Shown here one piece after another: positions 18,173 through 21,850 of a stretch of 43,263 nt of DNA. A program made the translations under genes and the position numbers. Numbering within the stretch: the stretch's first letter is position 1; each line of letters begins with the position of its first letter. The DNA comes from Verrucomicrobiales bacterium. Lineage in GTDB: Bacteria; Verrucomicrobiota; Verrucomicrobiia; Verrucomicrobiales; DEV007. The DNA lies in the NCBI GenBank assembly GCA_016795505.1, contig JAEUHH010000027.1, positions 1 through 43,263 on the forward strand, written 5' to 3'. A model generated the notes under the pieces. The model searched no databases. It was not told the origin of the DNA and saw only the letters and a program-made list of their open reading frames with translations.

Positions 18173-18433
18173 CTAAAAGTGATCCCGCAGCAGGGCGGCA
18201 GTGATCAGCTCCGGCAGCGTGGTGCCGAGGCGTTCCGCAATGCGAAAAAGGGTGCCCACCTGACAGCCATTTCCGCACCGACCCTGTTCGATATTGAGGA
18301 TGGTTTGGTCCGTCACATTTCCCGCCCGCCCCAGGCTATACGCACTGATGCCCAGCCGCTCCCGCCGGGATCTGATCTCGGCGCCGAGATCCCGGATGAA
18401 AAAGGAGACCGCGTCCTCTGTAGAGGGGGCCAT
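18173..18433 (-). CDS. XRE-family helix-turn-helix regulator
   Basis: 86 residues, essentially one Cro/C1-type DNA-binding domain. IRSRRERLGISAYSLGRAGN covers the first helices, VTDQTILNIEQGR the recognition helix and the family's closing IEQGR turn, and LGTTLPELI the fifth helix region. It is small and has no sensor domain. An inverted repeat TTGCCAA/TTGGCAA lies about 110 bases upstream and could be its operator. It borders the cassette island on the left; nothing shows that it controls it. Confidence 0.85.
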   Translation of the reverse strand: MAPSTEDAVSFFIRDLGAEIRSRRERLGISAYSLGRAGNVTDQTILNIEQGRCGNGCQVGTLFRIAERLGTTLPELITAALLRDHF

Positions 18434-18569: not shown

Positions 18570-18955
18570 GGAAAAGATTCGACCCTTGATCCACGAAACC
18601 AAAGGTCGTGCGCCGAGCAAAGTGAGGCGTTTCTGGTGGTGTGAAAGTCACCCTGCCGGTCACCGCCCACCGGGCCGGAGGGCGCGGAAAGCAGCTCCGA
18701 AGCGGCCCGTGGCTGAGGCCGCCCCTGGCCGAAGCCGGAGACACCGCCGCCAGTCCTCCCCGTTCGACCGGTTGATCCACGGGCTGGAAGACGCGTGATA
18801 TCCCAGAGGGAACGGACGCGCCCGGAAGCGCGATCCGGTTGGGCGGATAGACGCACTCTTTTGCAGAAAATCCTTGTCAGGACGAGGGGTTTTGGGCACT
18901 TTCAGCGCTGACCGACGGGCGGATATCACTGCGGGCGGTTTTACGAAGAAACAGT

Positions 18956-18962
18956 GTTCGCC
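18956..18962 (+). other. Cassette boundary, GTTCGCC core
   Basis: GTTCGCC fits a G/TT recombination core 12 bases before the NYN start codon. It is the exact reverse complement of GGCGAAC at 19523-19529, the R'' box of the site following the same gene. That complementarity between a cassette's 5' end and its own attC R'' box is what excision as a circle requires. No attC-type L' box and no convincing attI is seen to its left. Confidence 0.55.
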
Positions 18963-18974
18963 ACAGAAAAACAC

Positions 18975-19514
18975 ATGAAAATCTACACCTACGTTGATAA
19001 CTCCAACCTCTTCATCGAAGGCCGAAGGGTGTCCGCCGTCTCGAAGGGCATGGCTCCGAACATCTACGATGCGATGAATCACGGGATTCTCGACCATTCC
19101 TGGAATGTCGATTACGGGAAGCTCCATCGATTTCTCTGCGGAACGAACAAAGCAGAGATTGGCGGCGCGAAGCTTTGGGGATCGCTGCCTCCAAGTGACT
19201 CCTTTTGGGATATGGTGAAGCGGAAGGGGTTTGATCACACTGTTTTCGACAAGAACTTCCAAGGCAAGGAGAAGAAGGTCGATGTGGCGATCGCGCACGG
19301 GATGACTAAAGATGCCTACACGGTGATCGACAAGAAGGTGGACGAGATCACACTCGTTGCAGGCGACAAGGATTTCGTTCCCGTGGTCGAAGACCTCGTG
19401 GCAGAGGGATTTAAGGTTGAGGTAGTATTCTGGGATCATGCGGCAAGGGAACTCCGCGATGCCGCGACCTCATTCGTGTCACTCAATCCCCACCTCACGC
19501 TGCTCGGGCGATGA
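18975..19514 (+). CDS. NYN-domain protein, predicted RNase (PIN-like fold)
   Basis: 179 residues. NYN domains share the PIN/FLAP nuclease fold and usually cut RNA with a metal held by conserved acidic residues. Visible here are the opening YVDNSNLF (Asp8 and Asn11), Asp103 in KKVDVAIAHG, and LVAGDKDFVPVVE with Asp131 and Asp133, the typical acidic set. The start at 18975 was preferred to 18954 because it places the Asp-Asn motif right at the N terminus, as is usual. Base composition is lower in GC than the flanking genes. It is followed 8 bases later by an attC-like site and preceded by its matching core, so it is probably gene 1 of a cassette array. Confidence 0.85.
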   Translation: MKIYTYVDNSNLFIEGRRVSAVSKGMAPNIYDAMNHGILDHSWNVDYGKLHRFLCGTNKAEIGGAKLWGSLPPSDSFWDMVKRKGFDHTVFDKNFQGKEKKVDVAIAHGMTKDAYTVIDKKVDEITLVAGDKDFVPVVEDLVAEGFKVEVVFWDHAARELRDAATSFVSLNPHLTLLGR

Positions 19515-19522
19515 AAATCAGA

Positions 19523-19649
19523 GGCGAACAAGGCGCGGCTGGACAACCCGCCGCCCGTTTCGAGTCGAGGTTTAAGCAGTGACTACCACCTTCCACCCTG
19601 TTGCGAGGCGGCTCCCCCGGTAGCGGGTGCCAGCGCTCGGACGTTAGCC
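19523..19649 (+). other. attC-like integron recombination site 1
   Basis: R'' is GGCGAAC (19523-19529) and R' is GTTAGCC (19643-19649), complementary at 6 of 7 positions. L'' GCGGCTGGACAACCCGC (from 19535) pairs with L' GCGGGTGCCAGCGC (19624-19637, approximately) once single extra bases G, A and A are looped out. Such extrahelical bases are the hallmark of folded attC sites. The 127-bp length is within the attC range. The next gene starts 8 bases after R', as in gene cassettes. Confidence 0.75.
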
Positions 19650-19656
19650 TAAAGGA

Positions 19657-20349
19657 ATGCCCAGCAACGCACGCAAATCGTTCGACGAGAACCTAGTAGA
19701 CATCGGGCGTCTGATTGACTTTCACCAAGTCGCCGAACTTCTCGAAAAGGAAGCTGATCCCAATGATTCTCCAGTAGCCGGCAAGGATGTAGTGCTGAGG
19801 TCTGCGATTGTTCTATTAGTCACCTACTGGGAAGCGTATTTAGAAGACATAGCTTCCGAAGCTATAAATCTTATTGTAGATAAAGTGATAGTTCCTGAGA
19901 AGCTTCCTAAGGATCTGAAGAAGGCAGTTCTCAAGGACCTTGAGAACGATACAAATGAACTAGCATGTTGGCAGCTAGCGGGTGATGGATGGAAAAAGCT
20001 ACTTCATGATAGGCTGCCAAAGTTGCAAGAGGCCCGAAATAGAAGCTTTAACACTCCAAAATCGCGCCAAACAAGAGAGTTTATTTCGGCAGCGTTGGGT
20101 ATTGCCGATGTAACCAAGGCGTGGGAGTTTGCGGGGCGGACTCCGGAGGAGAATGCTGCTAAGCTGGATGCTTTGGTGGAGACTCGCGGGCGGATTGCCC
20201 ACCGGGGCAAGCTGACCAAAAAAATCACCGAAAAGGGTGTGAGTGAGGCGACTGAATTCATCAAAAGTCTAGTATCTAAGACTGGTGGAAAAATCAACAC
20301 GGAAGTTAAAAAGATTGCCGGCGTTTCCCTGCTTAAAGAAAATAAATAA
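19657..20349 (+). CDS. HEPN-like protein (MAE_28990/RiboL-PSP type), predicted RNase
   Basis: 230 residues, largely helical. VLLVTYWEAYLEDIASEAIN near 53-72 is typical of the MAE_28990/MAE_18760 HEPN group, and R177-GRIA-H182 is the Rx4H motif that forms the RNA-cutting site in HEPN toxins and defence nucleases. No signal peptide or membrane segment. GC is far below the surrounding genome, indicating acquisition. The start is 8 bases after the R' core of attC site 1, and the TAA stop overlaps the R'' box of site 2: a compact cassette. No paired antitoxin (for example MNT) is within the cassette. Confidence 0.75.
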   Translation: MPSNARKSFDENLVDIGRLIDFHQVAELLEKEADPNDSPVAGKDVVLRSAIVLLVTYWEAYLEDIASEAINLIVDKVIVPEKLPKDLKKAVLKDLENDTNELACWQLAGDGWKKLLHDRLPKLQEARNRSFNTPKSRQTREFISAALGIADVTKAWEFAGRTPEENAAKLDALVETRGRIAHRGKLTKKITEKGVSEATEFIKSLVSKTGGKINTEVKKIAGVSLLKENK

Positions 20350-20469
20350 CAATCGCGTCGGGCAACCGCTGTTCCCCGTTTTATTAAGACGTTTTACCTT
20401 AGTTTGAAGATCAACCATGTATGCATCTTCGGCCCGCTCGGGTAGCGGTGCATGCGCTTTTTGTTGTGC
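20344..20469 (+). other. attC-like integron recombination site 2
   Basis: R'' AAATAAC (20344-20350) overlaps the stop codon of the HEPN gene; R' is GTTGTGC (20463-20469). L'' GCGTCGGGCAACCGC (20355-20369) pairs with L' GCGGTGCATGCGC (20445-20457), again with an unpaired A in GCAACCGC. Length 126 bp, nearly that of site 1, although the interior sequence differs, as expected for attC sites, where structure is conserved rather than sequence. The R boxes pair less well than in site 1. Confidence 0.65.
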
Positions 20470-20477
20470 CAAAAAAT

Positions 20478-21323
20478 ATGTCGAAATCAATAGAACCGAG
20501 TACTAAACAAACGGCTTTCTCGTGTCCCCATTGCGGCGCCTACACGACGCAGTACTGGTATAGCGTTCGCGCTCATAATCTGTCAGGTGAGCGAAAGATT
20601 CCCTTTATTCCAGGGAAGGAAGAAAAGGAGCGTCTGGAAGCATCAATAGAGATTCCAGTAGAAAGCAAGAAAACCATTCGTAAATGGTTTGCTGATGTAG
20701 GAACCGGACTGGTATTCTTCAGGGATGGCGATCACGAAGGAACAAGGCGTTGTGTGGAGAATTTGCACCTCAGTGAATGCTACAACTGCAGCAAGATCGC
20801 GGTTTGGATCCACGAGAACCTCGTTTTCCCAGCACATAAGAACGGAAGCATTCCGAATACGGATCTGCCGGACGAAATCAAGCGCGACTTCGAGGAAGCT
20901 CGCAATATCGTCGAATCTTCACCCCGTGGAGCTGCCGCCCTGCTTCGTCTATGTGTCCAGAAACTTTGCGTTGAACTTGGCGAAAAAGGGAAGAATATCG
21001 ATGCAGATATTGCCAGTCTCGTTTCCAAGGGACTTGATCCACTCGTTCAACAAGCTCTGGATGTCGTTAGAGTGGTCGGGAACGAAGCTGTTCATCCGGG
21101 GGTGATTGACCTTGACGATGACAAGGAGATTGCGCTCCGATTATTCGATCTCATTAATGCGATCACAGATCAACTTATCTCCCATCCGAAACGGGTGAAG
21201 GATATGTATTCGAAGCTGCCAGAAGGGAAGAGGAAGGCGATTGAGGACCGGAACGAGAAAGCCAAACCAAAGGCACAGCAAGACGGTTGTGAACAACCGA
21301 CTACTTGCCGCGCGTCGGAATGA
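20478..21323 (+). CDS. Zinc-ribbon DUF4145 protein
   Basis: 281 residues from ATG 20478, which lies 8 bases after the R' core of attC site 2; the frame extends to 20421 but that would run through the attC site. The N-terminal zinc ribbon has C16PHC19 and C101YNC104. The C-terminal half (about 120-240) fits DUF4145: DFEEARNIVESSPRGAAALL, then the VRVVGNEAVHPG segment. DUF4145 occurs alone and fused to restriction enzymes and other defence proteins, and its helical fold is thought to be HEPN-related. Low GC and rare-codon use set it apart from the chromosome. Function not established. Confidence 0.8.
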   Translation: MSKSIEPSTKQTAFSCPHCGAYTTQYWYSVRAHNLSGERKIPFIPGKEEKERLEASIEIPVESKKTIRKWFADVGTGLVFFRDGDHEGTRRCVENLHLSECYNCSKIAVWIHENLVFPAHKNGSIPNTDLPDEIKRDFEEARNIVESSPRGAAALLRLCVQKLCVELGEKGKNIDADIASLVSKGLDPLVQQALDVVRVVGNEAVHPGVIDLDDDKEIALRLFDLINAITDQLISHPKRVKDMYSKLPEGKRKAIEDRNEKAKPKAQQDGCEQPTTCRASE

Positions 21324-21399
21324 CCCCTATGACTAAAACTCTTAGCCCTGTTGCGGAGCGGCGCTCCCAGTAGCGGGTGCCAGCGCTCTACTATCTGAG
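21291..21399 (+). other. Degenerate attC-like site 3
   Basis: L' GCGGGTGCCAGCGC (21373-21386) is identical to that of site 1, and about 58 bases before and including it align with site 1. GAACAAC (21291-21297), inside the DUF4145 gene end, matches at 6 of 7 bases the complement of this cassette's own core GTTGTGC. The position where R' should be (about 21393) reads ATCTGAG, without GTT. The site is therefore likely inactive, or the right junction has decayed. Nothing else is seen up to 21496. Confidence 0.5.
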
Positions 21400-21496
21400 A
21401 AAGAACAGGTGGATTATTTGAAACCCGACGCCAGTTACGTAAGGCGAATTCTACGTTGTTGCGAGAGGGTGATCCGACTTTCGCCACCGCCCCCCC

Positions 21497-21850
21497 TCAA
21501 AACGTCCCCGGCCCCACATCGACGACATCGAACTTCAGGCCGCCGGTGAATTTGGCGACGAGGTTGTAGATCGCGGCGAGGATGATGCCGCCGATGAAGC
21601 CGAAGAAGCCGTAAAAGATCGGGATGATGATGGCCATGACGATGCCGAATCCGCCGAAGAGGGCCAGCACTTCGGCGCCCCCGGGTCCGGTGCCGGTACC
21701 ACCAGCCGGCTGTGCCGACAGGCCGATGGCGCCGAAGGCGAGAAAGAAGAGGGCATACAGGATGCCGATGATGAGCCCGAGGGCGGCGTAAAGGGCGCCG
21801 AGGAAGACGCCGCTCTGGAGCACGTGGATGCGTTTCAGTTCTTTTTGCAT
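21497..21850 (-). CDS. Small integral membrane protein (DUF3566-like)
   Basis: 117 residues from ATG 21850. Two strongly hydrophobic stretches (LGALYAALGLIIGILYALFF and FGIVMAIIIPIFYGFFGFIG) form at least two, probably three, membrane helices. The ending YNLVAKFTGGLKFDVVD is typical of a family of small bacterial membrane proteins annotated as DUF3566-like. Function unknown. It stands alone, bordered by the cassette island on one side and a repeat-rich gap on the other. The open frame upstream of 21850 lies in repeats and was discarded. Confidence 0.75.
   Translation of the reverse strand: MQKELKRIHVLQSGVFLGALYAALGLIIGILYALFFLAFGAIGLSAQPAGGTGTGPGGAEVLALFGGFGIVMAIIIPIFYGFFGFIGGIILAAIYNLVAKFTGGLKFDVVDVGPGTF

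Follow-up and report, generated by a model that had tools for sequence, protein, structure and literature searches.

The window, by which we mean the whole 43,263-nt contig analyzed here, carries a genuine three-gene integron cassette array with attI at its head and the integrase gene absent. Very probably, the locus represents a small chromosomal integron platform that lacks an integrase of its own and consists of attI and three captured cassettes, each ending in attC. The initial annotation, made from the sequence alone, had described an integrase-less, CALIN-like array starting at 18956; a cassette array lacking intI is indeed present, but it is not a bare CALIN because attI is kept, and the feature actually starts at about 18795. 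Its parts are listed below, where the scores of S1 to S3 with our attC covariance model (Model R1) are circular rather than independent evidence, all three being training sites.

18795..18958, plus strand: attI element, probably with the cassette promoter Pc (homology to 11 other copies in the genome and to congener DNA between intI and the first cassette)
18975..19514, plus strand: cassette 1 gene, NYN-domain (PIN-like) nuclease, 179 aa (PF01936, E = 3.8e-17)
19522..19650, plus strand: attC site S1, R'' GGCGAAC 19523-19529, R' GTTAGCC 19643-19649 (Model R1 120.7 bits, training site)
19657..20349, plus strand: cassette 2 gene, HEPN protein of RiboL-PSP type, 230 aa (PF18735, E = 2.1e-17)
20344..20472, plus strand: attC site S2, R'' AAATAAC 20344-20350 (poor), R' GTTGTGC 20463-20469 (Model R1 59.2 bits, training site)
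20478..21323, plus strand: cassette 3 gene, DUF4145 protein of the PD-T7-4 anti-phage family, 281 aa (PF13643, E = 2.2e-15; PADLOC PD-T7-4, E = 3e-83)
21271..21400, plus strand: attC site S3, terminal, R'' GGCACAGC 21272-21279, R' decayed (TATCTGA from 21392) (Model R1 91.9 bits, training site)

The cassette genes

As first noticed from the letters, the three plus-strand genes are lower in GC (54%, 47% and 49%) than their flanks (66-67%) or the whole window (65%), and the genome is of PVC type, one window gene matching both TIGR02604 and TIGR02603. Relatives of the NYN, HEPN and PD-T7-4 genes are absent from nearly all of the 75 family genomes, which fits acquired cassettes, and in none of these genomes are the three genes found together. 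The one good relative there, of the HEPN gene (in G020, 47% identical), likewise ends 13 bp before an attC site. The cassette 3 protein matches the PADLOC family model of PD-T7-4 with 276 bits; phage protection by the window protein is putative, and the cargo as a whole is probably anti-phage or abortive-infection defence, judging from protein family. A comparison with the congener G063 for an empty site found only the right-hand gene (21500-21850) conserved, in a region that is not collinear.

A genome-wide family of attC sites

In a BLASTN search of the region against its own genome, similar sites were found on contigs C85, C98, C35, C29 and C120. A covariance model was trained on 14 aligned sites, nearly all of which had first come to light in plain BLASTN comparisons of contigs or on inspection of the C98 array. 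In a genome-wide attC search, as proposed in the initial annotation, this model returned 31 places in the 6.5-Mb genome, of which 17 had no part in the training; the lack of attC hits named in that annotation as counter-evidence was not seen. Six relatives have 10-66 places each, and G041, a same-family genome with no IntI over the cut-off, has 0. In the helix common to the 14 sites, 14 of 21 pairs are changed on both sides in at least one sequence, and the covariation score over the alignment is 0.342, compared with 0.141 when shuffled and no more than 0.123 when partners are slid. Similarly, 76.6% of cells are paired versus 62.8% in shuffles, bulged columns lie within the L arms, and S3 departs from the attC box arrangement at R' only. 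The sites therefore show the variable sequence, conserved structure and many copies per genome that characterize attC, and S1 to S3 are attC sites, members of a family of about 31 sites in the genome with covarying arms. Rfam gave no relevant match for the sites, and a simple DNA pattern proved of no use as an attC finder.

The sites in the window are 129-130 bp long, in agreement with the attC-like spacers first described between the genes (about 129 bp). Because of the long variable middle, and because in the array R'' and R' come from different cassettes, whole-site folding of S1 to S3 as single-stranded DNA was set aside for arm-only pairing and covariation. In S1 (z = -2.2) and S2 (z = -3.4), but not in S3 (z = -0.1), the arms by themselves pair better than shuffled ones. 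The R' box of S3 reads TATCTGA where relatives have GTTCTGC or GTTCGGC, and the decayed S3 is probably inactive. The degeneracy first noted for this site holds for its R' box only; its body scores 92 bits with the attC model that it helped to train. Other details of the first description hold in part. The site interiors, said to be unlike in sequence, share a right arm between S1 and S3 (88% over 43 bp), and the overlap of a stop codon with R'' is seen at S2 only, the NYN stop lying 7 bases before S1 and the third gene reading through the R'' of S3.

At several places in the genome, the AAC of an attC R'' box (AACAATAAAGG.TGT.GCCAAGG) is precisely where a repeated element of about 0.97 kb starts (L018:12639-12670, L018:16230-16261, L141:3730-3761, L142:3312-3343, L143:3595-3626 and L101:1441-1472). 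The two L018 copies are 92% alike, and the repeat may be an insertion targeting attC or a long unusual attC tail.

Signature of circular cassettes

In a cassette circle a single gene lies between R'' and R', so the R'' that follows it is expected to be the complement of the R' that precedes it. In cassette 1, the R' core GTTCGCC (18956..18962, plus strand) is the exact complement of R'' GGCGAAC at 19523-19529, just as the initial annotation had pointed out; the same relation holds in cassette 3, where GTTGTGCC at 20463 and GGCACAGC at 21272 are complementary at 7 of 8 positions. The match in cassette 2 is weak (GTTAGCC vs AAATAAC, 4 of 7). Model hits supplied 37 neighbouring pairs; at their variable positions there are 107 matches in 148, whereas 10,000 permutations give a mean of 67.3 (sd 5.6) and a maximum of 89; 18 pairs match perfectly against 2.5 expected. 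Cores were picked in this test, as in the attI-core test below, as the GTT nearest the model end, a rule that may misplace a few of them. An earlier hand-picked set gave 56 of 65 against 27.6, but its sites were chosen by eye, some with the match in view, and it is supporting only, being superseded by the model-based test. R'' after the gene thus complements R' before it, as in gene cassettes, and the cassettes once circularized.

The attI element

The DNA just left of the NYN gene resembles DNA beside arrays on five other contigs of the same genome (C73, C31, C67, C62 and C29) and DNA beside intI in the congeners G061 and G062. In G061 the order is intI (minus strand), the element, GTTAGGGC, a cassette, GCCCTAAC and attC, and this locus is a complete integron with the element of about 160 bp as its attI. 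Because the element lies between divergent intI and the first cassette in relatives, the stretch 18795-18958 is shown to be attI. Copies adjoin intI, the position expected of attI, in G061, G062, G003 and G028, and past the core GTT each copy goes on into its own cassette. The motifs of the window copy are GTGATATC at 18795, GATAGACGCAC at 18846, the -35-like TTGTCA at 18874, GATATCAC at 18922 and the core GTT at 18956-18958. The element would recombine with attC under IntI and, judging from its sequence, probably holds the cassette promoter Pc; a scan with the sigma-70 consensus did not report Pc in the element.

Two GATATC palindromes (GTGATATCAC-like) are kept in the element, at 18795 and 18922 of the window and in all copies; they may be operator or integrase-binding sites. 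A small HipB/XRE-like helix-turn-helix gene (18173-18433, minus strand) lies divergently upstream of attI, roughly at the expected position of intI. We had also considered the left boundary as an insertion at a secondary (attG) site, which was dropped once the attI homology emerged.

No integrase gene beside the attI copies

No IntI was found over the TIGR02249 cut-off in this assembly of 120 contigs, which is 96.6% complete and could be missing one integrase. This extends the earlier remark that none is visible from the window to the assembly. The best tyrosine recombinases have no match to model positions of about 182-236, which we take to be the IntI-specific part of TIGR02249. Searches with congener IntI proteins gave no hit in the window or close to any of the other attI copies here, and no intI remnant was found upstream of any copy. 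It is also evident that 11 of the 12 copies have at least 2.8 kb of upstream DNA without intI, the remaining one, on C62, being at a contig end; contig breaks therefore do not explain the missing gene there. These results show that intI is absent beside the window attI and at least 10 other copies in the genome. With three attC sites and no intI in the 43-kb contig, the locus falls within the definition of a CALIN, and it lacks the intI beside attI of a complete integron.

In the family, 36 of 75 genomes encode an IntI over the cut-off, including the congeners G061 and G062 and excluding G063. Several family genomes (G062, G053, G003 and G028) have at least two IntI genes over the cut-off on separate contigs, and some of these are without the window type of attI.

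Dispersed attI copies

A sequence model of attI finds 12 copies in this genome, 10 in G062 and 11 in G028; across the order it matches 40 of 289 genomes, which belong to three families. The existence of dispersed attI copies in this genome is well supported. The window array and at least five others here are headed by attI. In 11 genomes a copy has a divergent intI within about 2 kb on the same contig, and for most other copies none is listed. Within 1.3 kb downstream, 19 of 27 attI copies have the complement of their core heptamer (permutation mean 3.9, maximum 12); no exact R'' heptamer lies downstream of the copies on C73, C67, C29, C7 and C54, a point against the platform reading.

Most copies in this genome are only about 70-78% alike. 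The platforms on C17, C91 and C78 are 91-94% identical over a shared upstream stretch of about 1.1-1.2 kb that includes attI. Between C17 and C91 the match ends at GTT, where ungapped identity falls from 82% to 30%; in a gapped alignment the two are 93.8% identical upstream of GTT and unrelated after it. Near-identical platforms with different cassettes are as predicted by capture at attI, and since both are without intI, the integrase acted either in trans or before its loss. At L148 (G062:C210), L147 (G062:C240) and L153 (G028:C57), two attI copies stand in tandem on a single contig at a spacing of about 1.5 kb, and a cassette follows each of them.

Origin of the integrase-free platforms

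These platforms could be explained by an IntI encoded elsewhere, either missing from the assembly or lately lost, which would act in trans on the dispersed attI sites, recombining folded attC bottom strands into them, while Pc would transcribe the first cassettes. Service in trans from another locus is, in our judgment, evenly poised between true and false, and the window array may itself be inactive, given the weak R''/R' match of cassette 2 and the decayed S3. Extended to this order, the proposal is a distributed integron, in which attI multiplied without the integrase, each copy has its own short set of cassettes, and an IntI encoded at another locus fills them in trans, so that there are many promoter-proximal first positions in place of a single one. 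Behind it stand the attI copy numbers (12 here, 10-11 in some relatives), and we would give it an even chance. Alternatively, each attI-headed array may be the degraded remnant of a once complete integron that lost its own intI, with nothing acting now. The decay of S3, the absence of intI from the assembly, the low similarity of most attI copies, which marks them as old, and the general reading of CALINs as degraded integrons (PMC9024848) are all consistent with this. However, the C17, C91 and C78 platforms are closely alike over about 1.1 kb with no intI on any of them and differing cassettes on C17 and C91, no copy in the genome has an intI remnant upstream, and twelve independent losses in one genome are many; degradation alone is thus a real possibility but a somewhat doubtful one.

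It is improbable that the pattern is an assembly artefact, that is, one or a few complete integrons fragmented by their repeated attC sites, while intI sits on a piece left out of the assembly or bin. Many attC sites do lie near contig ends, and CALINs are overestimated in draft genomes (PMC9024848), but the window array has single-contig flanks of 18.8 kb and 21.8 kb and nearly all attI copies have the long upstream DNA without intI described above, and such breakage could account for the missing intI of the genome, not for the separate attI loci. Three co-oriented genes with plausible defence functions might also form an ordinary operon with chance inverted repeats in its spacers, and an operon in relatives was what the initial annotation had named as evidence against cassettes. 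Yet no such operon is seen in the relatives, the three genes never occurring together in the 75 family genomes, and the spacers belong to a genome-wide family of covarying sites; the attC family and the cassette-circle test refute this reading, which we regard as scarcely credible.

Relationship to known integrons

In the usual description an integron consists of a single integrase, a single attI and a single array, with the result that expression is limited to the first few cassettes. The window array, as an integron cassette array, has an ordinary mechanism; the unusual point is that attI platforms lacking an integrase have multiplied, both within one chromosome and across an order. As in sedentary chromosomal integrons, there are attI, cassettes and attC, and the window attI element adjoins divergent intI in G061 and G062; such integrons, however, have intI and one attI per genome, whereas here there are no intI, short arrays and many attI copies. 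There are already reports of integrons in Verrucomicrobiota and Planctomycetota (PMC8618304). IntegronFinder has CALINs as a standard class, for which an origin by degradation of integrons has been proposed and whose counts are inflated when assemblies are broken (PMC9024848). The window array is like them in having at least two attC sites, one cassette orientation and no intI nearby, but CALINs are defined by attC sites alone, whereas this array and at least five others in the genome keep attI at the head. The delta-attI cassettes of class 1 and 2 integrons likewise have attI sequence away from intI, but there an attI fragment replaces attC at the cassette 3' end (PMC12901181), whereas the array here has an attI-plus-leader element of about 160 bp at its head. 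No relevant report of multiple or dispersed attI was found in the literature searched, although an earlier description is possible, most subscription journals being outside the search. With many integrase-free attI platforms in one chromosome, capture would be uncoupled from the integrase locus and the expressed positions multiplied, and the duplicated C17, C91 and C78 platforms make this idea directly testable.

The PD-T7-4 anti-phage family travels in integrons of unrelated bacteria. Relatives of the window protein at 42-60% identity occur in 19 loci of other lineages (L039-L057), the one in Nitrosomonas eutropha being 60% identical. R'/R'' complements of 8-11 bases lie on either side of the gene in N. 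eutropha and Pseudomonas sp. 8Z, and likewise in Kineobactrum sediminis, a Rhodoferax MAG and a gammaproteobacterial MAG. In the literature searched, no paper names PD-T7-4 jointly with integrons; the gene differs from PD-T7-4 as described in PADLOC in being an integron cassette, both here and in these five other bacteria or MAGs. Probable defence genes as cassettes in this clade, together with the recurrent PD-T7-4 cassette, lend further weight to the view that integrons store defence genes.
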